DNA of 64,000 nt from assembly GCF_024748615.1 (NCBI RefSeq), contig NZ_CP087168.1:1984001-2048000 (forward strand), read 5' to 3'. Below are positions 5,965 to 33,022 of the stretch, piece by piece. The position numbers and the translations under genes were made by a program. Each line of letters opens with the position of its first letter. Within the stretch, counting starts at the first letter, position 1. This DNA is from Pseudomonas sp. B21-048 (GTDB lineage Bacteria > Pseudomonadota > Gammaproteobacteria > Pseudomonadales > Pseudomonadaceae). The notes under the pieces were generated by a model. That model was not told the origin of the DNA and did no database searches. It saw only the letters and a program-made list of their open reading frames with translations.

Positions 5965-6872
5965 TCGACCCCCAGTAACAGGTCAATCGCCGTGCAATAG
6001 GGCGCTTGGTATTGGGTGGCGACGATATCGGTCCAGTTCTCCAGCACCACCTTGCGCACGCCCTCGACGTGCAGCGAGGCGTGGAGGATGGATTCAGATA
6101 CCTCCAGGCCCAATCGACGGCGTTGGTGCACAAATTTCAGTAGCCGTTCTTTGGCCGCTCTCAGGATCAGCTCTGACTCTGGCCCTGATGTCAGCAGGTA
6201 GAGTTCGGCGCTGATTTCGTAGTTGATGATTTGTGCGCCTTGAACCCTCAGGCGATCGCCCAACGGGCGGCGGTCGTCGTCGCTCAGGTAGGTTTTAACG
6301 GCGGCCAGCAGATCCGCCGAGGCGCTGCCATCGCCCAATGCGGATTGCACAGTGATGACTGCTTCGGCGGGTTTAGGACTTTCTGCTGTGGCGTCGGCCA
6401 CACGACCATCGGCGGACCGTGCGTGAAAGATGTAGCTGTTGCGTGGGCCTGCGGTGCTGAGACCTTCCCACGCCATTTGCGCACGTTCGCGTAGGCTGTC
6501 GTCGCTTTCCATCAGCTTTGGAATGGGCGGCATGGCTGAAGGGTTGGCGACCTGAATGACCAACCGTCTGACGTTGTAGTTCGCGGCCAGGTTCTCCAGG
6601 TCGGCGCCCTTGGCCAGGGCGAGCATATTCGCCACCGACGCCTCATTGACCCGCTGGCGCCAGACCATTTCGCGGTAAGCGTTCTCCTCGAGCAGTTTGG
6701 TCAGCGGCTCAGATTCCATGTTCAGGCGTGCTGCGATTTCCGTCTGTGCCTCGGCCGGCCAGAGGCTGATGGCATAGGCTTTGCGCTCGGCAAGGATTTG
6801 TTCGTAGTCGATCTGTTCGACGATCTGCGGCGCCGGCAGCTGGCTCAGGTCGATGGCGACGAAGGTGTTCAT
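5961..6872 (-). CDS. J: Baseplate assembly protein J (P2 gpJ-like)
   Basis: A 303-residue baseplate J-like protein. Features: N-terminal VAIDLSQLPAPQIVEQIDYE, the ALAKGADLENLAANYNVRR segment, and a C-terminal VHVEGVRKVVLENWTDIVA region. It joins with gpW and gpI to build the baseplate wedges around the spike. The start overlaps gene W. Intact, and in P2 order. Confidence 0.94.
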   Translation of the reverse strand: MNTFVAIDLSQLPAPQIVEQIDYEQILAERKAYAISLWPAEAQTEIAARLNMESEPLTKLLEENAYREMVWRQRVNEASVANMLALAKGADLENLAANYNVRRLVIQVANPSAMPPIPKLMESDDSLRERAQMAWEGLSTAGPRNSYIFHARSADGRVADATAESPKPAEAVITVQSALGDGSASADLLAAVKTYLSDDDRRPLGDRLRVQGAQIINYEISAELYLLTSGPESELILRAAKERLLKFVHQRRRLGLEVSESILHASLHVEGVRKVVLENWTDIVATQYQAPYCTAIDLLLGVE

Positions 6873-7213
6873 GCGCTGCCCCCCAGTTGCAGAGGTACGC
6901 TCAGGCTCAGCGGCTGGTTGCTGTCCACCAGGGTGCCCTCAAGATCCAGCGATGACTGCCCTTGCAGGTTCGCCCCGACAAACTGCACACGGCTCAGGCT
7001 GATGCGCTGTTCCCAGCGCATCAGGGCCATGACGGTGGCGGCGTACACCTGTAGGCGGGTGAAGTCGTTGAATGGCTGATCCACCAGTTCGGGCAGCAAG
7101 CTGCCGTATTCGCGTCGCATGACGCGGGTGCCGAGGCGGGTGGTGAGGATGTCGGTGATGGACTGGGTGATGTGTTCGACCAGGTCGAGGGCGGCGCCGG
7201 TTTCTCGGTTCAT
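6869..7213 (-). CDS. W: Baseplate protein W (P2 gpW, gp25-like)
   Basis: A 114-residue gp25-type lysozyme-fold baseplate protein. The signature RLGTRVMRREYGSLLPELVD is clear. It nucleates sheath and wedge assembly at the baseplate. It overlaps V by 4 nt and J by 4 nt. Full length. Confidence 0.94.
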   Translation of the reverse strand: MNRETGAALDLVEHITQSITDILTTRLGTRVMRREYGSLLPELVDQPFNDFTRLQVYAATVMALMRWEQRISLSRVQFVGANLQGQSSLDLEGTLVDSNQPLSLSVPLQLGGSA

Positions 7214-14463: not shown

Positions 14464-16221
14464 ATGACTCCGACCGCACTGTTGCCCATTGATCCCCGCC
14501 GCCAATCCAAGTTTTTGTACTGGATGGGTTGGCGCGTCTGTGAGATTGCCGGGGCCATCGGGGAAAAGGAGAAAACGCTACATAGCTGGAAGGTCCGCGA
14601 CGCGTGGGACCGGGCGAATAACGTCGAGCGCATTGGCGGGGCGCTGGAGGCGCGGCTGGTGCAGCTAATCCTCAAGGACTGCAAGAGCAGCGGGGACTTC
14701 AAGGAAATTGACCTGCTGCATCGGCAGTTGGAGCGGCAGGCCCGTATTCAGCGCTTTCAAGGTGGCGGTACCGAAACCGACCTTAACCCGAATCTGGCCA
14801 AACGCAACGAAGGGCCGAAGAAGAAAACTCCGAAAAACGACATTAGCGAAGAGCAGATAGAGCTGCTGCGCGAGGCGTTTATCGATGGCTGTTTCGACTA
14901 CCAGAAAGATTGGTACCGGGCTGGTAATCAGCGCACTCGCGTCATTCTCAAGAGCCGGCAGATTGGTGCGACCTATTACTTCGCCCGTGAGGCGTTTATC
15001 GATGCCCTGGACACGGGGCGGAATCAGATTTTTCTGTCGGCTTCGAAGAACCAGGCCTACCTGTTTCGTGGGTATATCCAGGCTTTCGCCCGTGAGGTAA
15101 TTGGCGTTGAGCTGACCGGCGACCCCATTGTTTTGCCCAACGGCGCCGAGTTGTTTTTTCTGGGTACCAACGCCCGTACCGCCCAGGGCTATCACGGCAA
15201 TTTTTACTTCGACGAATTCTTCTGGACGTTCAAGTTTGAAGAACTGAACAAGGTCGCCTCGGGCATGGCGATGCACAAAAAATGGCGCAAAACCTACTTC
15301 TCGACGCCGTCGAGCATGGCCCACGAGGCCTACACCTTCTGGACCGGTGAGCGCTTTAACAAGGGCAAGCCCGCCGCGCAGCACACGAAGGTGGATGTGT
15401 CCCATGGCGTGCTCCAGCAGGGGAGGCTCTGCGAAGACCGATTATGGCGGCAGATCGTCAACATTCTCGACGCGGAGCAGGGTGGTTGCGACTTGTTCGA
15501 CATCGAAGAGCTCCGCCGCGAGTACAGCCCCGAAGCGTTCGCCAATCTGCTGATGTGCGATTTTGTCGACGACGGGGCGAGCATCTTCCCGCTGGCGTTG
15601 TTGCAGTCCTGCATGGTCGACAGCTGGGTCGAGTGGTCTGAGGACTACAAACCGTTTGCCATGCGGCCGTTCGGCGACCGCCAGGTGTGGATTGGCTACG
15701 ACCCAGCCGAGACGGGCGACTGTTCGGGGCTGGTAGTGGTCGCGCCGCCGCTAGTACCGGGCGGCAAATTCCGCGTGCTTGAGCGGCATCAGTTCCGCGG
15801 CATGGACTTCGCGGCGCAGGCCGCTTTTATCAAGAGCGTCTGCGACCGCTACTGGGTGACCTACATCGGGATTGATGTCACCGGGTTGGGCAGTGGCGTG
15901 GCCCAGCTGGTTCGTCAGTTCTTCCCGGCCGTGACCACGTTCAGTTATTCACCCGAGGTCAAAACACGCCTGGTGCTCAAGGCTTACGACGTTATCCATA
16001 AGGGCCGGCTGGAGTTTGATGCTGGCTGGACGGATATGGCGCAGTCGTTGATGGCAATTCGTAAGACCGTCACCGCTGGTGGACGTCAATACACCTACAC
16101 CGCAGGGCGCAACGACAACACCGGCCATGCCGATCTGGCGTGGGCGCTCTTTCACGCATTGCACCACGAACCGCTTGAGGGGCAGACCGTTGGCAACACC
16201 GGGCGGATGGAGATTTACTGA
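14464..16221 (+). CDS. P: Terminase large subunit, ATPase P (P2 gpP-like)
   Basis: About 585 residues starting MTPTALLPIDPRRQSKFLYW; a GTG at 14443 is an alternative. An N-terminal helix-turn-helix (VCEIAGAIGEKEKTLHSWK) is followed by the ATPase with RVILKSRQIGATYYFAR as the Walker A-like element. A C-terminal nuclease-like region begins IGYDPAETGDCSGLVVV. It pumps DNA into procapsids and cuts cos with gpM. It overlaps Q (TGATG), forming the short plus-strand PQ operon. Confidence 0.95.
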   Translation: MTPTALLPIDPRRQSKFLYWMGWRVCEIAGAIGEKEKTLHSWKVRDAWDRANNVERIGGALEARLVQLILKDCKSSGDFKEIDLLHRQLERQARIQRFQGGGTETDLNPNLAKRNEGPKKKTPKNDISEEQIELLREAFIDGCFDYQKDWYRAGNQRTRVILKSRQIGATYYFAREAFIDALDTGRNQIFLSASKNQAYLFRGYIQAFAREVIGVELTGDPIVLPNGAELFFLGTNARTAQGYHGNFYFDEFFWTFKFEELNKVASGMAMHKKWRKTYFSTPSSMAHEAYTFWTGERFNKGKPAAQHTKVDVSHGVLQQGRLCEDRLWRQIVNILDAEQGGCDLFDIEELRREYSPEAFANLLMCDFVDDGASIFPLALLQSCMVDSWVEWSEDYKPFAMRPFGDRQVWIGYDPAETGDCSGLVVVAPPLVPGGKFRVLERHQFRGMDFAAQAAFIKSVCDRYWVTYIGIDVTGLGSGVAQLVRQFFPAVTTFSYSPEVKTRLVLKAYDVIHKGRLEFDAGWTDMAQSLMAIRKTVTAGGRQYTYTAGRNDNTGHADLAWALFHALHHEPLEGQTVGNTGRMEIY

Positions 16222-17246
16222 TGACTGAACAACTCGCCAACCAGGCGCTGTTACCCGTGACCACACCCGCCACCAGTGCCGCGACGCAGGTGTTTTCCTT
16301 CGGCGACCCTACGCCGGTGTTGGGTGGTAGGGAGGTGTTCGACTACCTGGAGTGCTGGTTTAACGGGCGGTGGTATGAGCCGCCGCTGTCGCTGAATGGT
16401 CTGGCCCGGTCGGTGGGGGCGAGCGTGCATCTGCATTCGGGGTTGATGTTCAAGCGCAACCTGTTGAGCAAGACGTTTATTCCGCATCCGCTGTTGTCGC
16501 GGGCTTCATTCGAGCAGTTTGCCTTGGACTTCCTGTGCCTGGGCAATGGTTACTTTGAGGGGCGGCGTTCGAGGTTGGGCGGCGTTCGCAAACTGGAAAC
16601 GCCGTTGGCCAAATACATGCGGGCCGGCCCGGACGGGCTGTTCTACCAGGTGCGAGGGTGGAAGGACGAACACGCCTTTAAGTCGGACAGCATTTTTCAT
16701 CTGCGCGAGGCGGATTTGCATCAAGAGATTTACGGGCTGCCAGAATGGATCAGTGCGTTGCAATCGGCGTTGTTGAACGAATCAGCGACGCTGTTTCGGC
16801 GCAAGTATTACGAGAATGGCAGTCATGCCGGGTTCATCTTGTACATGACGGATGCGGCGCAGACCGAGACCGACATCGATGCGTTGCGCAAGGCGCTGAA
16901 GGATTCGAAAGGTCCTGGTAATTTCCGTAATCTATTTGTCTATTCGCCGACTGGTAAGAAGGATGGGATTCAGCTGATTCCGGTGAGCGAGGTGGCAGCG
17001 AAAGATGAATTCAATTCAATCAAGAATCAGACGCGTGATGACGTACTGGCCAGCCTGCGTATTCCGCCGCAGTTGATGGGGATTGTCCCGCAGAACGCAG
17101 GAGGATTTGGGTCGATCAGGGAGGCAGCGCAGATCTATGCAGCCAACGAGTTGGAGCCCATTCAGACGAGGATGTTGCAGTTGAATGATTGGCTGGGTGA
17201 AGAGGTGGTGCGTTTCAAACCGTATGAACAGACCCCGGCCATTTAG
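16221..17246 (+). CDS. Q: Portal protein Q (P2 gpQ-like)
   Basis: 341 residues, phage portal of the P2/PBSX group. Features: FSFGDPTPVLGGREVFDYLE, the KSDSIFHLREADLHQEIYGL core, and C-terminal IPPQLMGIVPQNAGGFGS. It forms the dodecameric DNA gate on the capsid. Its last ~300 bases are duplicated, in decayed form, at 17930-18224. Confidence 0.95.
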   Translation: MTEQLANQALLPVTTPATSAATQVFSFGDPTPVLGGREVFDYLECWFNGRWYEPPLSLNGLARSVGASVHLHSGLMFKRNLLSKTFIPHPLLSRASFEQFALDFLCLGNGYFEGRRSRLGGVRKLETPLAKYMRAGPDGLFYQVRGWKDEHAFKSDSIFHLREADLHQEIYGLPEWISALQSALLNESATLFRRKYYENGSHAGFILYMTDAAQTETDIDALRKALKDSKGPGNFRNLFVYSPTGKKDGIQLIPVSEVAAKDEFNSIKNQTRDDVLASLRIPPQLMGIVPQNAGGFGSIREAAQIYAANELEPIQTRMLQLNDWLGEEVVRFKPYEQTPAI

Positions 17247-17270: not shown

Positions 17271-17660
17271 TCAGTCGTCAAAAATGATGTCGCGTTGATC
17301 AATCATTCCATGGCTGGAGATCGAGATCTGGAATCGCTTAAAAAGGCTGAAAAATTCTACAAGGGGCATATCAAATCGAATCTTGCGAACCTTGAGCGGA
17401 TCGCCAGAATTTACTGCCGCTTGAACATCATCATACCCTTCGTAGTTCGTTGCCAAAGCGGTAACGCTAACGTCAGTAACCTGGGGCTTACCCGCTAATT
17501 CGGACGCGTACGCCTCTATGCCAACCAGAAACTCTCCCTGATTTATTAAGCCCTGACTTTCAAGGTATTTAGAGATACTGTCGTGATCACGGCGATCAGC
17601 AGCTGCTGTGCCTTTGAAGTCACCATATTGAACACTCGCGTGAAAATTCTCTTGCCCCAT
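17271..17660 (-). CDS. Unknown small protein between portal and decayed portal copy
   Basis: 129 residues from ATG 17660, which has AAGGA seven bases upstream. It begins MGQENFHASVQYGDFKGTAA and continues DRRDHDSISKYLESQGL and GEFLVGIEAYASELAG. No signal peptide, membrane segment or catalytic motif is visible. I do not recognise a named family with confidence. It is transcribed towards Q, alone, in the cargo slot between the portal and the cos side. A role in phage competition is possible from position only. Confidence 0.65.
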   Translation of the reverse strand: MGQENFHASVQYGDFKGTAAADRRDHDSISKYLESQGLINQGEFLVGIEAYASELAGKPQVTDVSVTALATNYEGYDDVQAAVNSGDPLKVRKIRFDMPLVEFFSLFKRFQISISSHGMIDQRDIIFDD

Positions 17661-17929
17661 CGTTCTTTTCCTTAAGTGAAAGTTACTTTCTAACTCTTCT
17701 GTTCTGAAATGGGCATAGTTGGCCAGCCGGCATGTCAATTTAGACGTAAGTTTTCGCTCTTGGCTGGTGTCAAATGCCTGCCGACCCTACCACCGGCAGT
17801 CCATATGGGCAAGCAGTGGGGGGCTGCGGGGCCTATAAATACGGGCGATGCAGATGTGATGTGGCCGTTAGAGAGCTGGTGCTATTGACGTACCACATGA
17901 CGCGGACGCGTGCTTTAGGCTTTGCGTCT

Positions 17930-18224
17930 ATTCGTGTACTCGCCGACAGGCAAAAAGGACGGCATTCAGCTGATCCTGGCCATCTAGGTGGCCACGATCA
18001 AGAATCAAACGCGGGACGACGTGTTGGCCAGCCTGTGGATTCCACCGCAGTTGATGAGGATTGTTCCACAGAACGCTGGAGGCTTCGGGTGGATTAGAGA
18101 AGCGGCCTAGATCTATGCGGCCAACGAGCTGGAGCAGATTCAGACGCGAATGTTGCAGCTGAATGACTGGGTGGGAGAGAAGGTTGTCCAATTTAAGCCA
18201 TACGATATCGGAGGGGAGGCGTAA
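17930..18224 (+). pseudogene. Decayed second copy of the portal (Q) 3' end
   Basis: This stretch aligns base by base with the last ~300 nt of Q at 16930-17246. Recognisable pieces include TCGCCGACAGGCAAAAAGGA, AATCAAACGCGGGACGACGT and TGGAGCAGATTCAGACGCGA. It carries in-frame stops (CTGGCCATCTAG, GCGGCCTAG) and a short deletion, and lacks the first two thirds of the gene. It differs from Q at many synonymous positions, so it came from a related phage, not a recent tandem duplication. It separates the small cargo gene from the MTase operon. Confidence 0.88.
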
Positions 18225-18292: not shown

Positions 18293-18967
18293 CTAAATGG
18301 CTAACGCGTACCTCTCATTGTCGAGATAAATAGTAACATTATTGACATATTCTTCTAGGAACGAAAGTACTTTACTCATTGCTTCTTTGAGCTCCGATGG
18401 GGTTGAGTCTTTACCCACCTCGGAAAAAGATTTATTTCCATGAGCGAGCCAATTCCTGTTGTCTTTTACCTTTTTAAGGTCGCGTCCGTCGGCAACAGAG
18501 TCAATTCCGTACTTTCTACAAACTGATCTAACTCCCTCGGCGTCTAAGTTGCCAGAGATACCCGCAATGAAGTCTTGGAAAGCAGGGCTCGATTCTGTTC
18601 TACATAAACAATAGACTTCATAAACCTTTCGTATTAACGTGTCGCGCGGAGTTGCGGAAATAGACTCATGGTGCGCGTGCCACCAAATTTCTTGTAGTTT
18701 TTCATTCAGGTCAAGGAAGGAGAGGCCATCGTCAGTGATTTTATTATAGATACTTCTTATGCCTTCGCGGACTGTCGCCTCCACTATATTGTATAAGACT
18801 AAATAGAAGGAGGCTTTTAAAGTTGTTGATTCTAGTGTGTTTATTTTATGAGTCTCGCCATCGTCATTGCTAATAATGATGTTGTCGCCACTGATAAATG
18901 AAACGAGTTTAAGGTAAGACTCTATCTCAAGCTTCCTTTTGTTGTATTCTTCCATGAAGTGTTTCAT
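18293..18967 (-). CDS. MAE_28990/MAE_18760-type HEPN-like nuclease
   Basis: 224 residues. The C-terminal motif KVKDNRNWLAHGNKSFSE contains R-x4-H (RNWLAH), the catalytic signature of HEPN ribonucleases. The middle helices TTLKASFYLVLYNIVEATVR and the IWWHAHHESISATPRD segment fit the MAE_28990 HEPN family. It is the third gene of the MTase-DUF262-HEPN operon, overlapping the DUF262 stop as ATGA. It is AT-rich compared with the phage late genes. Likely an RNA-cleaving effector or toxin; the substrate is unknown. Confidence 0.82.
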   Translation of the reverse strand: MKHFMEEYNKRKLEIESYLKLVSFISGDNIIISNDDGETHKINTLESTTLKASFYLVLYNIVEATVREGIRSIYNKITDDGLSFLDLNEKLQEIWWHAHHESISATPRDTLIRKVYEVYCLCRTESSPAFQDFIAGISGNLDAEGVRSVCRKYGIDSVADGRDLKKVKDNRNWLAHGNKSFSEVGKDSTPSELKEAMSKVLSFLEEYVNNVTIYLDNERYALAI

Positions 18968-20013
18968 TGAATGTTGCCCAAGAGCAAAAAGTTTTTGACA
19001 AAATTTATACGGGCTCGCAGACGAGGACCAGAATTGCTCCCGTGTGATGTGGTAAGTTTCTGGAAGTTATCGTTCTCGGTTAGCGTTTTTCCGTCTATGA
19101 TTGGTAGTTCAGGATGTTCTTTCAACGCTAGGTTAGACCCGATCGCTAAGGCTTCAAAACGAACTCTAGGGGTGGACGTGGCAGTCGGGCTTTTAGCAAA
19201 GCCGCCATCAAATGTTTTACTGACATAGGAAAGCATTGTTTTGAAATTTGTCCATAAGCCTTCTTCGTCATAGTCAGATTTATTCATGGCTATAACGTAT
19301 TCATTTAAGAAGCCTTTGACGCTATGCTTGAATTCTTGATATTTGTCACTGTACGCAAAATACCTTACAACAAGTTCTTCTCGTTCTCTACGAGATTTTG
19401 AATTTTCTGACATTGGGCATAGTTTGTTGAATTCTTCATCGTAGGCACATTTTTCAATAAATGTTGAAAATTTACCTGAGTAAGCACCCCGTCGGATTTC
19501 CGAAGCTTTAAGTTCTTGGCTACCCGTGTTTATCCGCTCAAACATATCTAAGCGTACGCTTAGGCTCACAGACGACGGAAGTACGACCATTCTCATCGGG
19601 CGATCGAGAAATTTATTCTGTTGAGCAGATGGTAAGTCTCTGAAGCAATACCCTTCAAGCAGGTCGAGCCTGTCGAGATTTTTCAGCTTCAGGCCATTGT
19701 CGCAAAACTGTTTGAGTGTTTGTATTCTTTGGGCGCCATCCAATATTTCCACAGTGCCATCTTCACACTGAACACCAAACATGAATGGAATTGGTAGTCC
19801 CATTAGAACAGATTCTATAAATTTCGATTTTTTTTGTTCTGGCCACGTGAAGTTGCGCTGGTATGAAGGGACAAATAACTTGTCTTCATTGAAGCGTTTG
19901 ACAATTACCTCTACTACATATTCCTTCGTATCATAGGCAATTGTTGATTGAAAGCTTGAGATCTGCTCATCAACCATCTCCAGATTAATTGCGGTAGAAT
20001 CAAATAAGTCCAT
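18964..20013 (-). CDS. DUF262 domain protein (ParB/Srx-like, GmrS N-terminal type)
   Basis: 349 residues with the DUF262 hallmarks: FVPSYQRNFTWPEQKKSKFI, VEILDGAQRIQTLKQF (the DGxQR motif) and FERINTGSQELKASEIRRG. The family resembles ParB/sulfiredoxin-fold NTPases and the GmrS half of the GmrSD modification-dependent enzyme. No C-terminal DUF1524 His-Asn nuclease is present, so the nuclease may be the HEPN partner. It starts 2 nt after the MTase stop and overlaps the HEPN start, giving strict coupling. Confidence 0.87.
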   Translation of the reverse strand: MDLFDSTAINLEMVDEQISSFQSTIAYDTKEYVVEVIVKRFNEDKLFVPSYQRNFTWPEQKKSKFIESVLMGLPIPFMFGVQCEDGTVEILDGAQRIQTLKQFCDNGLKLKNLDRLDLLEGYCFRDLPSAQQNKFLDRPMRMVVLPSSVSLSVRLDMFERINTGSQELKASEIRRGAYSGKFSTFIEKCAYDEEFNKLCPMSENSKSRREREELVVRYFAYSDKYQEFKHSVKGFLNEYVIAMNKSDYDEEGLWTNFKTMLSYVSKTFDGGFAKSPTATSTPRVRFEALAIGSNLALKEHPELPIIDGKTLTENDNFQKLTTSHGSNSGPRLRARINFVKNFLLLGNIQ

Positions 20014-20015
20014 TA

Positions 20016-21074
20016 TTATCGTCCTAGAGTACTTAAAATAAATCGCTTAGATAGTGCAGGGGGAACTGCGTTACCTATCATTTTTTGTAAGTTAGATCTT
20101 AAAGTCACTCCAGAGTAATCTAGCCAATCAGGAAGGCCTTGTATTCTTGCTGCTTCGTGTGGAGTGATAACCCTCTTCATTAAGGGGTGAACATATCTTC
20201 CTTGTCCCATAGAACCGAAGCCGCTAGTAATGGTTTGTGCGACATTGTCCCACTTTAAACGTCCGTACATCGACTTGTACGAGTGTTTTCCTTGGTGGCA
20301 AGGTGGTCGAAGTTCGTTGGGTAAGTCGTAGCTATCTGTCTCGAATAAGTATTCTGCTCTCAGCAGGTTTTCTTTTGTCATTTTCGACGGAGTATCAAAT
20401 AGGCTTGTTCCAGTGAAGGTTGTAAGGTCGCCTAATACATCCGATAAATTATTTCTTTGCTCCGTATAGATACCATCGATGACGCGATCTAAGTCTCCGT
20501 TCAAACTGCCAAAAATAACATGGCGTTTTCTGCTTTGAGGAATGCCGAGGCGCATAAAGTCGATTACAACTTCTCGTGTCGAGTAACCAAATTTTTCAAG
20601 AAGAAGCATTGATTTCGTGATAATACTCTCTTGCGAATGTATGACGGACGGAACATTTTCTATTAAGAAGTATTTTGGTTGTGTTAGTTGAATGAATTTA
20701 ATGGTTCTAAGATATAAAAAATTTCGGGGGTCGTTTCTACGACTGTGATTGTTTAAGTTGGAATGACCTTGGCACGGCGGACCAGCAAATAAAAAATCAA
20801 TATTTTTATTTTCAGATATTATCTTTTTTTCTGAATTATTGGGGGTGGCTGAAAAATTATCGCTGATCAGTTCCGATATGTCGCCGGAATGGAATTTTTT
20901 CAGGTGATTCGAAAAATTTTTAATGTAGAAAGAGGCGGCGCCTTGGTCGATATCACAAGCATATTTTATATTTGGTGTTCTATTCAGCTCTTGAATCGCT
21001 TCGATAGCTCCGATAGTCAAACCGCCCATTCCGCAAAATAAATCAGCGATATTTATAGTGCTTCGTACGCTCAA
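20016..21074 (-). CDS. DNA cytosine-C5 methyltransferase
   Basis: 352 residues from a TTG start. All key motifs are seen: motif I DLFCGMGGLTIG, motif IV FAGPPCQGHSNL with the catalytic Cys, motif VI ENVPS, motif VIII QSRKRHV, motif IX RIQGLPDWL and motif X GNAVPPALSKR. It transfers methyl from SAM to cytosine C5 in DNA. The target sequence cannot be read from the protein. No classical restriction endonuclease is adjacent; DUF262 and HEPN genes follow in one operon. The ATG-less start has no strong ribosome site, which suggests low expression. Confidence 0.92.
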   Translation of the reverse strand: MSVRSTINIADLFCGMGGLTIGAIEAIQELNRTPNIKYACDIDQGAASFYIKNFSNHLKKFHSGDISELISDNFSATPNNSEKKIISENKNIDFLFAGPPCQGHSNLNNHSRRNDPRNFLYLRTIKFIQLTQPKYFLIENVPSVIHSQESIITKSMLLLEKFGYSTREVVIDFMRLGIPQSRKRHVIFGSLNGDLDRVIDGIYTEQRNNLSDVLGDLTTFTGTSLFDTPSKMTKENLLRAEYLFETDSYDLPNELRPPCHQGKHSYKSMYGRLKWDNVAQTITSGFGSMGQGRYVHPLMKRVITPHEAARIQGLPDWLDYSGVTLRSNLQKMIGNAVPPALSKRFILSTLGR

Positions 21075-22481: not shown

Positions 22482-23615
22482 TCACTTCAGGCTGGCGGAG
22501 ACTCGAGCTATCAGAGGAGCTAAGTTGCCACCATCTGCTTCGTTTAGTGCTGAGTAGTACGCCACTGCGTCGGCTGTGAACTCTGAACCAATACCCTGGT
22601 TCAAAAGCTCTCGTGCCGCTTGATCGAGCAAAATTCTTGCGAGGCGCCCGTTTGCATCTAGAAACGGGTGTATGCACAGAAACTCATGGTGAAATTCGGC
22701 TAAGGTAGCTACGACTTCCTCTTTTTGACTCGCCTGGAGACGGGAGTGTTGCTCTTGCCACCTTACAATCCAAGAGTTAGTTAGATCAACAAGCTGTTCC
22801 GGTACTGGTGGCACATAGGTTGCTGTTTCTGGTGTTGAACCAGCGGGGCCTACCCAAACGTTGACTGAGCGAAGGCGACCGCGTACTGCTTCCGGAAGCC
22901 GACTGTCCTCTGTAATCACGCGATGCAACCAACAAAGAGTTGTTAATGAGAGAGACGCTGTGGGCATCTCTGGGTTCTCTGGTGCAGAGCCTTTCTGTCG
23001 CAGGTGCGATGGTTTTTCGAGTAGCGCGAAGCCAATTGCGTTTGTTCGCTCAATTATCAGATCTAACTTCTCATCCAATGTTCGAATTTGGCTTTCCCGT
23101 CTTTTTTCATGATCGACGAGCTTACGGACAATGTCTTGATTCATCGAACTCCAGAACGACCATTGCTCAGCGTCTGTCATTGAAATCCGAAGGTATTCCA
23201 AACGAATACCGCAACCCTTGGGGGCATCAAGAACACTGCGAATGCGTTCTAAGTGGTAAAGCTCTACTCGGCTTTGCCCTGCAAGTCCAAGAAGCTGTTC
23301 TCGTTCGCCGATTGTCAATGGCTGGTTGACGAAAAAGGCGAACGCTGAGGCATTGTTCGCTCGGACGCCCTCAATGTCATGTTCAAACTTCGACTTGATG
23401 ACTCTGAATTCAGATAGGGTCGACGGAAAGTACGCTGCGGCGACCCATGATAGACCGTCTTTGCAGCACAACACGTCTTTCAGTCCATCCGGGCCGCCAA
23501 GTGGATGCTGAGGATCAACAGCTTCGAACCCTTCAAGGTGCAAGAGCGCGGCGACCATTCTTTCAGCTTGTGTCTGGCCATAGCGCCACTCACGAAGTGC
23601 GGATTCAGTTGTCAT
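22482..23615 (-). CDS. Fic family protein with N-terminal nuclease-like domain
   Basis: 377 residues. The C-terminal half is a Fic domain with HPFLDANGRLAR, the active-site motif with Ala in place of the usual first Gly. Fic enzymes move AMP or related groups from nucleotides to protein targets. The N-terminal ~90 residues contain HPLGGPDGLKDVLCCKDGLS and VAAAYFP, which resembles a restriction-endonuclease-like (GPDG..KD) module; this is a resemblance only. A helical linker (MNQDIVRKLVDHEKRRESQI) joins them. GAGGG precedes the ATG. It diverges from the 100-aa gene across an operator region. Confidence 0.82.
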   Translation of the reverse strand: MTTESALREWRYGQTQAERMVAALLHLEGFEAVDPQHPLGGPDGLKDVLCCKDGLSWVAAAYFPSTLSEFRVIKSKFEHDIEGVRANNASAFAFFVNQPLTIGEREQLLGLAGQSRVELYHLERIRSVLDAPKGCGIRLEYLRISMTDAEQWSFWSSMNQDIVRKLVDHEKRRESQIRTLDEKLDLIIERTNAIGFALLEKPSHLRQKGSAPENPEMPTASLSLTTLCWLHRVITEDSRLPEAVRGRLRSVNVWVGPAGSTPETATYVPPVPEQLVDLTNSWIVRWQEQHSRLQASQKEEVVATLAEFHHEFLCIHPFLDANGRLARILLDQAARELLNQGIGSEFTADAVAYYSALNEADGGNLAPLIARVSASLK

Positions 23616-24156: not shown

Positions 24157-24733
24157 AAGGCGCTCGCGATGGCGGATGTGCTTGGCGTGTCGAGCCAAGC
24201 ACGGATTAAGCTCTGAAAAAATGGGGGTAGCGGGGCAAGGATTGATTCCTGTGAATCTAAATCATTTCCTGCGACTGCCAAATCCGGACTAGTCCGGTTG
24301 TATTGTCCCTGATTCTAACTACGCATATGCCCAATGAGGTCTACGGGACAATAATCATGGAGTGGGTAATCGATGCTGGTGTGCTTAACTGCCTCCTACT
24401 CAAAATTTCCCTCCTCAAGCGTCGGTTAGCGATCGAGTCGTTTGGCTGTTTGGCTTCGTCTGAGCTGTCACATGAGGACACTTGTAAGGTGGTCACAATT
24501 TGTTGGTTTCTGAAAGGCACGTTCAACTAATAAAGGCATCGTGCCTAAAATCTCAAAATAGAGATTGTCGGTCGTAGATCTCCGAGCTAGCTATTTTGTT
24601 TTATATATGGTGTTTTAACCTAAGCGTATTGAAGTAATATGAAATCGTGAGGCTAGTTTCTCTACGTCACGATTGCAAGTTTATCCTTGACAAATCAAGT
24701 GCCTCATCAACTAATCGTCTAGTGGTAAATGAT
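24157..24733. other. Gap without supported gene
   Basis: Small open frames here lack ribosome sites and family features. The last ~130 bases are A/T-rich and probably hold the promoter of the SMEK-type gene. Nothing else stands out. Confidence 0.5.
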
Positions 24734-25762
24734 ATGCTGACAGAGCGACATAGATGTACCTACGAGATAACGTTTGCGCTTGGAAGCTATGTCACTCAGA
24801 TTCAGCTGTTAGCCAAAGAGGGGCAGACTGATAGTGCCAAGGCTGCCGAAGATTCACTAATTGATATTGTGAATATAGCTTATAATTGTAATTTTGTGAA
24901 CATGAATACTGTCAGGCCGAATCATCCAGGGATTGATTGGAAAGAAACTCGCTATGGCACCGGACTGCAGGTAACCGTTACGGAAACTTCCGCGAAGATC
25001 GAGAATAGCATAGACACAATAATACGAAACAATGTAAATACATCTCGTGTAATCTGGTTTCTAATGCTAACCACAAATAAACATGGTCAATCAGGAAGGC
25101 ATTCAGGGTACAACACTCAAACTATTACAATAAATGATCTGGTACGACAAATATGTGCGTTACCTGACCAGCTTTTTTTTACAGCGGTGGAGAAAATAAA
25201 AGAAAAGTTAGGTCCGTGGTTTTCGCGTCAAAACAATAGTGATTTGAAGGTGGGTGGCTACAAGCTACCCTCTGTTTCCCCTGTCGATTTCATAAATCAC
25301 CATAACCTCTGGGACCGTTTAGACTCCAAAGAAGAAGTGCCACCGGCAGTTTTTAAGCAACTCCAGGTCTTTGCAGATGACTTTTCTAAGCTCCCACTTC
25401 CAATCAGGATAGTTATCGCCAAAATCGTTCAGCACGCACCTACACCCAAAGACATTTTTCAACCTTTGGAGATTGAGTTGGATGAATTTTACTACCACCT
25501 TGGAGACGATGAACGGGACGAATTGGCGCAGATTCTAGGTGTCATCGAAAAGAAATATCACGGTCATCTAGCGCAAACAAACCCGCGCATTGCTGGTGAT
25601 GGCATAACCATTAATTATGACCATTACATCCAGCTTAGCTGGCGCACATCTGAGCCAGATATGAACATTTATACTGCGTTGAAAATTTACTACTTAGCCG
25701 CCTTAACTGTGGAAGACCTTTACAAGGCTTTCGAGCAGGTCGACTTCAGCTTATTGAGATGA
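24734..25762 (+). CDS. SMEK-type domain protein, putative defence component
   Basis: About 342 residues from ATG 24734 (a GTG at 24647 would add 29). The N-terminus MLTERHRCTYEITFALGSYV, followed by NHPGIDWKETRYGTGLQVTV and SAKIENSIDTIIRN, matches the SMEK pattern: a helix bundle, then a short nuclease-like core GID...GLQVT, then SxKI. SMEK proteins occur next to conflict systems. The C-terminal ~200 residues (PTPKDIFQPLEIELDEFYYH) are unassigned. AT-rich, isolated, and inside a run of defence-type genes. Function is inferred from neighbourhood. Confidence 0.62.
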   Translation: MLTERHRCTYEITFALGSYVTQIQLLAKEGQTDSAKAAEDSLIDIVNIAYNCNFVNMNTVRPNHPGIDWKETRYGTGLQVTVTETSAKIENSIDTIIRNNVNTSRVIWFLMLTTNKHGQSGRHSGYNTQTITINDLVRQICALPDQLFFTAVEKIKEKLGPWFSRQNNSDLKVGGYKLPSVSPVDFINHHNLWDRLDSKEEVPPAVFKQLQVFADDFSKLPLPIRIVIAKIVQHAPTPKDIFQPLEIELDEFYYHLGDDERDELAQILGVIEKKYHGHLAQTNPRIAGDGITINYDHYIQLSWRTSEPDMNIYTALKIYYLAALTVEDLYKAFEQVDFSLLR

Positions 25763-26883: not shown

Positions 26884-28584
26884 TTAATTTATTATAGAGT
26901 CCACATTTCCTAGCACTGTCGCCGTGAGGGGGGGGGACTTCAGCAAGTCGCGTGAAATATCTGGATCAGGTATTGCGGTTTTAATCAAGAGTTCCAGTCT
27001 ATCAAACCAAGCACCGTCATTAGCAGAGAACAGGTTGTACAGCGCTTCGTTTTTTGTTTTGCAACCAAACTCTTTGAACATTGCTCCGCAAAACTTAGAT
27101 GCCGCTGTCATTACATGCCAGCGAAGCTTCGAGTATCGGCCATCAAATCTCTTGTTGCCTGTGAGGAGCCTCAAGCGGTAATAAATATAGCAGGCCGTGT
27201 AATAGTCTTCCTCATGCCGGCCTTGAGAAAAAACATCATTCAAAAGATCGCCTGTTAATCTGTTTGGATACCTACTTGATAAGTCAGGGCGCATCATAAC
27301 TACTGCGGCGTAACAGCGTGCCACTTCCCTCGCGTCGAATATACGCGCGGGTGCAACGTTCTCCGCTCTATACTGTCCTTTGCGACGTTCAAAGTAAATC
27401 CTATTCGCCTCTGTTGCGCCTCTTGCGTTAAAGTATTGTTCCAGAACTCGCAGGGCGTCTAGTGTAGATATAAACTGCGCATCTTCTACCTTTGACTGTC
27501 GATTTGTTGCCCGGACAATATCGTCTATTACTGATGGCTTGTCGGCCTCAATAAGCTTAATCATCAGGCTTACTGTGTTGTCAACTTGCTCGTCTAAAGA
27601 TATAAGTATGTTTGAGGTTTGGCATCCATTCACGATCTGGAAATCGCGAATGAAAATTTCTTGTCCTGCTGGCCGAATGCTGGATGCTACAATTGTAATG
27701 CCATTGTTCATAAGGCCAAAGCGTTGCTTTTTGTCCGCACTATTTAATGTTTCGGCAATTTCAGAGTTGACTTCGACATCTACTCCCAAGAAGTCGCGCA
27801 CGTTTTCTTCGAACAGTTTCTTTCGAGGACTTCCGTTTTGATCTTTGAGGACGGAGTCTATAAAATTTCGCGCAGTTACAGTGGCGACATACGCATTATT
27901 AATATCGGGCGCGGCGGGGAATGGGGCATAGCCGACAGTTGGTAGTCTTGCCTCCATTGGCCCATCAGCCGACAACCACAGCTCATGGATCAGCTCACGA
28001 TGGGCTTTAACGAGAAGAGTTTCGTTGGAGTACCCCATTCTCTTCAGTGCGGCTTCGCCGACCTGGAACGCAGCATTGATCTCGACCGCGTCCGTGTCTG
28101 GTGCTGCGGAAAAGAAATAAGCGTGAAGATCTGGCAACCCACCTCGAATTCGACCGATGTTTTCAAATACTTTGTTGAACATTTCTTTGAACGTAGCTAA
28201 GTACGGGCTATGAGGTTGTGCTGGTTCCTCTGATAAATAATCAACGATGGCGGCAACAAAAGAGTCAATCTCTTGCTTCGACCAATTCACCGATCTTTTT
28301 GCTTGAATTAGGGCAATTGTGACTTTATATTCGCGCCTGCTCGTTTCAAATATCTCATCTAGTTCTTCCAGTGAGAATACAGCGCGATCATCGAGGAATA
28401 GCAGGGCACCATCTATCCCGGGATCTGCACCTTCATAGACCAAGTCACTCGCTTCAACTCTATCTCCAGAATATTTGGAGAAAGCACAATAGTTTACAAA
28501 GGCCTCAAAGTTTTTCGACTCTTCATATGGAGCACCAAAATCTTTGCAGAAAGTATCAAAGTAAGATTTCGTTACGAGGTGCAT
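26884..28584 (-). CDS. AIPR family abortive-infection protein
   Basis: 566 residues from ATG 28584 with AGGGA upstream. The N-terminal part contains ADPGIDGALLFLDD and VTIALIQAKRSVNWSKQEI, a PD-(D/E)xK-type core in which QAK supplies the third motif. The central AIPR core has FGLMNNGITIVASSIRP and IRDFQIVNGCQTSNIL. AIPR proteins are linked to abortive infection phage resistance. A longer upstream frame is open but carries no family sequence. It has its own terminator and no partner gene, so it looks like a stand-alone system. AT-rich relative to the chromosome. Confidence 0.85.
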   Translation of the reverse strand: MHLVTKSYFDTFCKDFGAPYEESKNFEAFVNYCAFSKYSGDRVEASDLVYEGADPGIDGALLFLDDRAVFSLEELDEIFETSRREYKVTIALIQAKRSVNWSKQEIDSFVAAIVDYLSEEPAQPHSPYLATFKEMFNKVFENIGRIRGGLPDLHAYFFSAAPDTDAVEINAAFQVGEAALKRMGYSNETLLVKAHRELIHELWLSADGPMEARLPTVGYAPFPAAPDINNAYVATVTARNFIDSVLKDQNGSPRKKLFEENVRDFLGVDVEVNSEIAETLNSADKKQRFGLMNNGITIVASSIRPAGQEIFIRDFQIVNGCQTSNILISLDEQVDNTVSLMIKLIEADKPSVIDDIVRATNRQSKVEDAQFISTLDALRVLEQYFNARGATEANRIYFERRKGQYRAENVAPARIFDAREVARCYAAVVMMRPDLSSRYPNRLTGDLLNDVFSQGRHEEDYYTACYIYYRLRLLTGNKRFDGRYSKLRWHVMTAASKFCGAMFKEFGCKTKNEALYNLFSANDGAWFDRLELLIKTAIPDPDISRDLLKSPPLTATVLGNVDSIIN

Positions 28585-28904
28585 ATTTCTATCCCTAGAT
28601 GTGGTGGTCAATATTAGGCATGATTCGTGAAGAAGCACAATCCGTCCCTTCCCACCACGAAGCTCCAGCCAATCGTTGATTCGGGCATATCGAATGCAGC
28701 GATATTCTCGTCCGTCTGTGGGCGCGTAGCGTGCTGCTGGGAGAGGGCTGGGGTGGCGGTTGACTTGGTTGTTGGGGACATGGAGATATCTAAATAGAAT
28801 GAGGGGGAGGCGATGACGGAGTTTGTCAGGATTGGGGGGAGGCGCGCGTGTCGAGGGGATAAGGCACGCAAGTGAAGGCAGGGACGAATCCATAGATGCG
28901 TCTC

Positions 28905-32066: not shown

Positions 32067-32567
32067 ATGATTCGACCCTCATTTTCTAGCGCGTGGGCGG
32101 CTTCTCAACGGATTTACGACACCATCAATCCATCTGAAAAAGTTGCGACAGTCATTGGCGGCAATGTTGCAATGAACATTAACAGCCGTGATCCGGCCTT
32201 AAGATGGGTCAACACGTGCGCGGTGCGTATGAGTTATATCCTCAATTACTCCGGTTCACTCATACCGCGAATAGTTGGCGAAACCGTGTCTGGCGCTGAC
32301 AAGCGCTGGTACTTTTATCGCGTCAAAAGCCTGATTGCCTATCTGGAACAGCAATGGGGAAGTGCCGAGACGGTCAGATACCCGGCCGCAAATGGCGGCA
32401 CCCTGGCGGGCCGGAAAGGTCTTATTTTGTTTGAAGTTTCTGGCTGGTCGGACGCTCAGGGGCATGCCACATTGTTTGACGGCAGAATGTGTTATGACCA
32501 CTGCTATTTCAATGAGCCGGGTATGAACTATCAAACCGACCGCGCAAACTTCTGGAGTTTGTCTTGA
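32067..32567 (+). CDS. tae4: Tae4-type type VI secretion amidase effector
   Basis: 166 residues. The catalytic Cys lies in WVNTCAVRMSYILNYSG and the His in SDAQGHATLFDG, the pairing of Tae4 NlpC/P60-like amidases that cut the D-Glu-mDAP bond of peptidoglycan in rival cells. No signal peptide, as expected for T6SS cargo. The stop overlaps the start of the immunity gene (TGATG). No T6SS structural, VgrG or PAAR gene is in the window, so it is an orphan effector locus. Confidence 0.82.
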   Translation: MIRPSFSSAWAASQRIYDTINPSEKVATVIGGNVAMNINSRDPALRWVNTCAVRMSYILNYSGSLIPRIVGETVSGADKRWYFYRVKSLIAYLEQQWGSAETVRYPAANGGTLAGRKGLILFEVSGWSDAQGHATLFDGRMCYDHCYFNEPGMNYQTDRANFWSLS

Positions 32568-33022
32568 TGAAGTATTTGACTGCGGTCTTGGTACTGGCTT
32601 GGGCAGCCGCACCTTCCAGCAGTTGGTCCAAGGATGATCCGACCAACTCCCCACAGGCAGGCGGGCGCACCTACGCGCAAAATTACAAGGATATGGTGCT
32701 GGCAGACTGCATCGCTACAGCTTACAAGAGCGAACCTGAAGCCGCCCAGGACGCCGGAAGCAGTGCCAGTGCGCTTATGGACTGGACCTATTTCGATCTG
32801 GAGCAAGCACCTCAAGCCGGTAGGCCTCTGGTTGACCAGTTTCTGGCTCGTGATTATCACAATCTACTGGTCGAATCAGAGCGTCAAGGTGTTCGCTTTG
32901 AGCTGCTCAAATGCCTGGACCTGTATCACAGCAAAGAGTTGGACAGCCAGGTCAGGCAATTGGTCATCAATCCTGAGCATACCTATCGTCAGGACAACCC
33001 GCCACGACCCCAAAAGGATTGA
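32567..33022 (+). CDS. tai4: Tai4-type periplasmic immunity protein
   Basis: 151 residues from ATG 32567. A signal peptide MKYLTAVLVLAWAAAPSSSW targets the periplasm. The mature part has YKDMVLADCIATAYKSEPEA and CLDLYHSKELDSQVRQLV, with two Cys, as in Tai4 proteins that plug the amidase active site. Overlap with the effector gene ensures co-expression. Confidence 0.82.
   Translation: MKYLTAVLVLAWAAAPSSSWSKDDPTNSPQAGGRTYAQNYKDMVLADCIATAYKSEPEAAQDAGSSASALMDWTYFDLEQAPQAGRPLVDQFLARDYHNLLVESERQGVRFELLKCLDLYHSKELDSQVRQLVINPEHTYRQDNPPRPQKD

Follow-up and report, generated by a model that had tools for sequence, protein, structure and literature searches.

A DUF262–HEPN gene pair with an exchangeable cytosine methylase beside a Pseudomonas P2-type prophage: a candidate restriction-like anti-phage operon

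We analysed a stretch of 64,000 nucleotides (nt) from Pseudomonas sp. B21-048 (contig NZ_CP087168.1, positions 1,984,001 to 2,048,000; the window), in which three genes beside a P2-type prophage code for a C5 cytosine DNA methyltransferase (MTase), a DUF262 protein and a MAE_28990-type HEPN protein. The arrangement has been in print since 2013, and what our comparison of related loci adds is that DUF262 and HEPN travel together while the methylase is exchanged. We give a probability of about 0.5 to the reading that this is an anti-phage operon working like restriction-modification (R-M), with an RNase as the executing enzyme. That the operon serves in defence is very probable, and DUF262 and HEPN most likely form one effector unit; that methylation is the self mark whose absence triggers the effector has about even odds.

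Architecture of the operon

The operon consists of the following genes, with lengths in amino acids (aa):
20016..21074, minus strand: C5 cytosine DNA methyltransferase, operon gene 1, 352 aa, TTG start; PF00145, 2e-48
18964..20013, minus strand: DUF262 / GmrSD N-terminal domain protein, 349 aa, ParB/Srx fold plus helical C-terminal region; PF03235, 2e-23
18293..18967, minus strand: MAE_28990-type HEPN protein, 224 aa; PF18737, 5.5e-20 (above cut-off); RNWLAH, R171-x4-H176

All three genes are full length, run in one direction and hold the expected motifs, with a gap of +2 nt between MTase and DUF262 and an overlap of 4 nt between DUF262 and HEPN; the coordinates and Pfam matches agree in this with a sequence-only reading of the window made earlier. 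Specifically, the MTase contains PCQ, ENV and GNAVP and matches the PADLOC MTase_II model (4.8e-93), while residues 92-96 of the DUF262 protein form a DGxQR motif, DGAQR. The TTG start and 352-aa length of the MTase are the same in the MTase of a phage contig (L033). The G+C content is ~38-42% across most of the operon and ~58-62% in the adjoining phage genes, and this relative A+T richness points to import. The source genome (5.71 Mb, with the window at G000:C1:1984001-2048000) yields one HEPN match, one DUF262 match and three C5 methylase places; a second C5 methylase match near the same prophage lies just left of the window (G000:C1:1980167-1980658). Promoter-like sites numbered 5 against a shuffle mean of 7.3, and terminator-like sites, mostly intragenic, 11 against 3.7; we draw no reading from these counts.

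The DUF262 protein resembles BrxU without its remainder

The sequence-only reading had stated that no ordinary restriction enzyme is present, which holds: Pfam, PADLOC and NCBIfam find no DNase or other nuclease domain in the triple, save that the PADLOC 'Type II restriction enzyme' model (REase_II) matches the DUF262 protein at 1.1e-15, and DUF1524 was not detected in any of the three operon proteins or in the scanned neighbouring proteins. A classical Type II R-M system with a hidden endonuclease was considered and set aside, as a methylase is present and no nuclease domain was found in the operon. The AlphaFold2 model of the DUF262 protein (predicted local distance difference test score, pLDDT, 90) finds its best structural matches in BrxU (top), ParB and SspE, and its alignment to BrxU spans residues 1-422 and leaves out the remainder of that 580-residue chain. 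A PDB sequence search with DUF262 gave no match; one with HEPN gave eight matches with E values up to 1 (S100 proteins among them, the best value being 0.001), which we take as chance, and Foldseek with the HEPN model gave none at E <= 0.001.

These results bear on a PrrC-type alternative, in which the ParB-fold DUF262 protein would be a DNA-cutting restriction subunit and HEPN a latent suicide RNase, freed when restriction is blocked. Besides the REase_II match, it draws on the general proposal of 2013 for HEPN genes beside R-M, where the MAE_28990 partner is called a 'ParB nuclease' (PMC3710099), and on nuclease activity reported for ParB-fold proteins (PMC4619093); here and below, statements from cited papers refer to the parts of them that were available. 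The 349-aa protein, however, has no recognised nuclease domain, and its model covers BrxU 1-422 only. We regard this alternative as improbable.

The set recurs across phyla

To place the operon among relatives, loci were collected by several searches. PF18737 picked up HEPN matches in 15 of 398 genomes drawn from the phylum and in 23 of 390 from the order, and the window HEPN as query matched 5 of 298 genus genomes, the source genome being included in all three counts. Thirty-seven phylum, order and genus places were re-fetched: a DUF262 gene accompanies HEPN in 31 (~1.7 kb apart in L074), HEPN stands without DUF262 in three (L064, L086, L089), and in three (L065, L066, L088) HEPN was not found by its own profile. 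A search of genome contigs gave 18 loci, 17 with DUF262 (shortened in L018 and L029) and 15 with a C5 methylase. L005 and L034-L052 were dropped as short versions of re-fetched places or of the window. The triple occurs on plasmids of Klebsiella, Roseomonas, Rhodococcus, Rhizobium and Phaeobacter and in a Moraxella phage (L002). A DNA search of phages with the cargo as query returned portals only, and among viral contigs a single-protein query gave no match and an alignment query two contigs. As the searches were seeded with HEPN, dead effectors are under-sampled.

Pair or triple recurs across phyla, which argues that the set is not a chance one, and the conservation elsewhere that the sequence-only reading had proposed to look for is found. 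Of the 65 loci with both genes, 64 keep R-x4-H and 64 keep DGxQR. Some loci carry further genes. The phage contigs L032 and L033 hold an extra C5 methylase ~1.9 and ~1.4 kb from the triple, and Vsr (very short patch repair) endonuclease genes stand beside the C5 methylase in L090 (7420-7833, a Rhizobium plasmid triple) and L103 (3803-4426, a Rubrobacter plasmid). On an E. coli IncX1 plasmid (L092, 4414-6054), a DUF262 gene is followed by a shorter annotated HEPN gene, undetected by our HEPN profile, which is another effector type beside DUF262.

One DUF262 clade is matched to C5 methylation

The DUF262 tree was built from 62 proteins of at least 300 aa out of the 65 loci (L013, L018 and L029, below 300 aa, were left out). 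Methylase absence was judged within the fetched stretches by a C5 profile and, for amino types, by motif search plus Pfam; the L029 stretch stops 21 nt past the HEPN gene, so that a methylase there is not judgeable. In one clade of 34 members (support 91/89, not starred), 33 have an adjacent C5 methylase, the exception being L019; L001 is counted among the 33 though its methylase reading frame is split. Outside the clade a C5 methylase is found in 0 of 28 loci, an amino-methylase is nearby in eight (<=20 nt away in six), and no methylase was found in the fetched stretch of the other 20. The C5 state requires two changes on the DUF262 tree. DG[STA]QR occurs in each of the 33 C5 rows as well as in L011, L015, L019 and L063; in the remaining 25 rows the middle residue is L, V or Q. 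What this clade conserves next to the pair is C5 chemistry, not one enzyme: the 33 methylases of the MTase tree fall into two groups (7 and 26) that are 27-33% identical to each other by region. Long branches meet in the MTase tree, as the tool warned, which makes the deep connection between the two groups uncertain; of five cyanobacterial outsiders, three were left out of the tree, the filter having found no reading frame. A Rubrobacter plasmid methylase joins the group of the window MTase, and no DUF262 or HEPN gene is annotated within 4.5 kb of it.

DUF262 and HEPN are co-inherited while the methylase is exchanged

Distance correlations were calculated for 32 of the 65 loci, the rest lacking a C5 methylase or having a too-short gene. 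Among these intact triples the correlation was 0.943 for DUF262-HEPN, 0.673 for DUF262-MTase and 0.639 for HEPN-MTase. After thinning to 20 diverged loci, DUF262-HEPN stayed at 0.658 (0 of 2000 permutations as high), while DUF262-MTase fell to 0.152 (257 of 2000) and HEPN-MTase to 0.079 (424 of 2000). Additionally, the position and strand of the MTase changed at least five times. DUF262 and HEPN are a stable co-evolving core beside which the methylase is replaced and moved.

The same data could be read as a toxin-antitoxin-like pair, in which DUF262 would simply keep HEPN in check and act as the sensor of a phage protein or nucleotide, with the MTase as a stabilising or unrelated passenger. 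The constancy of the pair, the 20 of 28 loci outside the C5 clade with no methylase found, the mobility of the MTase and the failure of its distances to track the pair after thinning are all in line with this. The contrast of 33/34 with 0/28 for C5 methylases and the six closely placed amino-methylases are, however, hard to explain for a passenger, and we consider this alternative very unlikely; the contrast likewise disfavours the MTase as a lone passenger.

Cases of decay were examined as a test of self-marking, under which the methylase should die last; examples go both ways and no conclusion was drawn. In L019 (Aphanizomenon, 6687-6876) the methylase is lost and DUF262 and HEPN are intact; the remnant is a 38-bp match to the methylase gene of L030, and the genome has other C5 methylase matches at seven places. 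Conversely, the methylase is intact beside a broken partner in L018 (shortened DUF262) and L031 (no DUF262 found, HEPN truncated). In L001, from phage P24B2, the MTase is split over two frames; the one E. coli copy examined is 100.0% identical and carries the annotation of one undivided gene of 1047 nt, and an error in the record may therefore account for the split.

Comparison with known systems

The MAE_28990 HEPN was listed as 'in operon with a ParB nuclease and DNA methylase genes' by Anantharaman et al. (2013, Table 1, PMC3710099), who also proposed that HEPN genes next to R-M systems encode suicide RNase arms. The parts are the same three, present in the window as a PF18737 R-x4-H HEPN, PF03235 and PF00145 at +2/-4 nt; the entry, in the available part, is a table row that gives neither the chemistry of the methylase nor a clade structure, a P2 hotspot or a test. 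PD-T4-2, for which DUF262 and HEPN domains are listed, is a tested anti-T4 defence, and T4 plating rises when it is deleted from its native strain (Vassallo et al. 2022). The operon type was thus already known and a DUF262+HEPN defence already tested, and novelty had been overstated in the sequence-only reading. In the available parts of the openly licensed literature we found no test of the triple, no family split by methylase chemistry and no methylase exchange.

By PADLOC, the window DUF262 protein matches NsnA best (3.6e-59), which we take to belong to Menshen, and PD-T4-2_A second (1.9e-34). The DUF262 protein of Menshen is paired with a predicted OLD nuclease (PMC10952713), whereas no OLD or ABC gene stands among the window neighbours scanned. 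The window HEPN also matches PF18735 (3.5e-7), the family listed for PD-T4-2, but no PADLOC PD-T4-2 match, the presence of a partner model in PADLOC being unchecked; the available text on PD-T4-2 mentions no methylase, whereas the window belongs to a methylase-bearing clade. The proteins of ten relatives behave alike in PADLOC, with DUF262 assigned to NsnA and PD-T4-2_A and HEPN to no system partner, save for two weak matches in L059. Plain membership of PD-T4-2 or Menshen was rejected, as no partner gene was matched by PADLOC. In Vibrio phage L9-1 (Peduoviridae; L003, 1368-6686), a C5 methylase stands with a DUF262 protein of 646 aa and two more genes, of which the first begins like an ATPase; the set is possibly a methylase-bearing Menshen relative.

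The window shares with the Type IV enzymes GmrSD and BrxU the DUF262 protein with DGxQR and a ParB/Srx fold, but no DUF1524 HNH nuclease was found in the operon or among the neighbouring proteins scanned, and HEPN and a methylase stand in its place. SspABCD-SspE is alike in having a DUF262 NTPase tied to DNA modification; it uses phosphorothioation and a DUF1524 nuclease, in contrast to C5 methylation and HEPN in the window. Growth arrest has been reported for SspE without the modification genes (PMC12707154).

Proposed mechanism and direction of sensing

In the restriction-like reading, the C5 methylase would, judged from its family, write a cytosine mark on resident DNA. The DUF262 protein, as a GmrS/BrxU-type ParB-fold NTPase without the HNH half, would read the modification state of DNA through an NTP switch, a role suggested because of GmrSD, BrxU and SspE and of the match of its clade to C5 methylases. 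It would also control HEPN, its constant partner, which on detection of unmarked DNA would cut RNA and halt the infected cell, as expected of the R-x4-H HEPN family. Prophages and plasmids carry the operon, presumably as a defence against superinfection. Every biochemical step is one that we infer, and the direction of sensing is the weak point. That absence of the mark would be the trigger is favoured by the near-constant methylase in the clade and by the arrest reported for SspE without modification genes.

The sequence-only reading had proposed this scheme. The conserved set, the co-inheritance of DUF262 and HEPN, the motifs kept in 64 of 65 loci and the P2 hotspot of relatives (see below) agree with it; simple self-marking is opposed by L019 and by L011, L015 and L063, which occupy neighbouring tree rows (weak join, 84/48) and have no MTase in the fetched stretch. 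The same loci, together with L013, count for a Type IV-like scheme, since pairs persist there without a C5 MTase. Under that scheme modified phage cytosines would switch DUF262 on, as in GmrSD and BrxU, with HEPN as the effector, and the MTase would be no simple self mark; it could set a tolerated background, or be a decoy or a separate second defence. BrxU and SspE do respond to modified DNA (PMC10952713), and PD-T4-2 acts on T4. The methylase adjacent in 33 of 34 clade members would, however, be suicidal if any 5mC triggered the effector, and the clade has kept C5 methylases from both groups next to the pair. We hold this scheme to be unlikely.

A rather unlikely variant of the restriction-like reading would place a guard on self DNA. 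Here the DUF262 NTPase would sit on C5-methylated resident DNA and hold HEPN off, amounting to restriction without DNA cutting; once unmethylated phage DNA outnumbers the methylated DNA, or the latter is diluted or lost, the RNase would be freed by the NTP switch. The pair would then read methyl chemistry and not one site, so that any C5 methylase could be swapped in, and sister clades may have been re-tuned to N6/N4 methylases.

Prophage context and neighbouring genes

A relative of the triple occurs in phage P24B2 (L001) and in E. coli chromosomes, the P24B2 stretch as query matching 7 of 5426 E. coli genomes. In all three contexts examined in E. coli P2-like prophages, the order is portal, DUF262, HEPN, convergent methylase and replication endonuclease, the last directly after the methylase or past two small genes. 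The interval from portal to replication endonuclease is a P2 defence hotspot (Vassallo et al., PMC9519451). Close to the DUF262 gene of a Klebsiella plasmid copy there is also a short remnant resembling a portal (28 and 22 aa, E 2.5e-6). The window, P24B2 and the Klebsiella copy belong to different parts of the DUF262 tree, and the gene order of the window differs; such systems therefore seem to have reached the portal site more than once.

In the window, P2-type genes left of the operon code for tail sheath, baseplate, endolysin, major head protein, scaffold, terminase and portal. The features between portal and operon are:
16221..17246, plus strand: P2-type portal protein of the flanking prophage; PF04860, 1e-16; phrog_68 portal, 4.9e-148
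17271..17738, minus strand: 155-aa open reading frame (ORF) between the portal and its decayed copy; phrog_28692 (unknown function), 6.6e-7; not claimed as part of the system
17928..18206, plus strand: decayed second portal C-terminus (portal residues 238-336), adjoining the HEPN gene; tblastn 79.8% aa identity over 99 aa

Up to E 0.1, nothing in Pfam, PADLOC or NCBIfam matches the 155-aa ORF. The decayed portal copy (blastn 74.7% over 297 columns) has in-frame stops, and its position past this ORF suggests repeated or stacked cargo exchange at the portal end. The operon had been described as cargo between portal and cos; the portal side of this is seen, but on the far side no replication gene or integrase was found among 11 ORFs scanned (21.6-34.3 kb), and cos was not searched for. 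Within the window the prophage looks incomplete right of the operon, where the following genes look like a defence island:
22482-23615: Fic protein
24647-25762: SMEK-domain protein
26884-28893: AIPR / Abi-alpha-like protein
32067-32567: Tae4 amidase
32564-33022: possible immunity gene after the Tae4 amidase, a guess

Implications

The family is well suited to testing, as it offers a compact three-gene set, a one-chemistry clade, relatives beside another chemistry and natural loci without a methylase, among which L019, with the pair kept and the methylase gone, is a natural test case. If the proposed mechanism is true, the operon would restrict phages by cutting RNA, and DNA methylation would serve as the licence. 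It would also explain why DUF262, so far linked to modified-DNA sensing with a DNase, is found beside an RNase-type partner as well.
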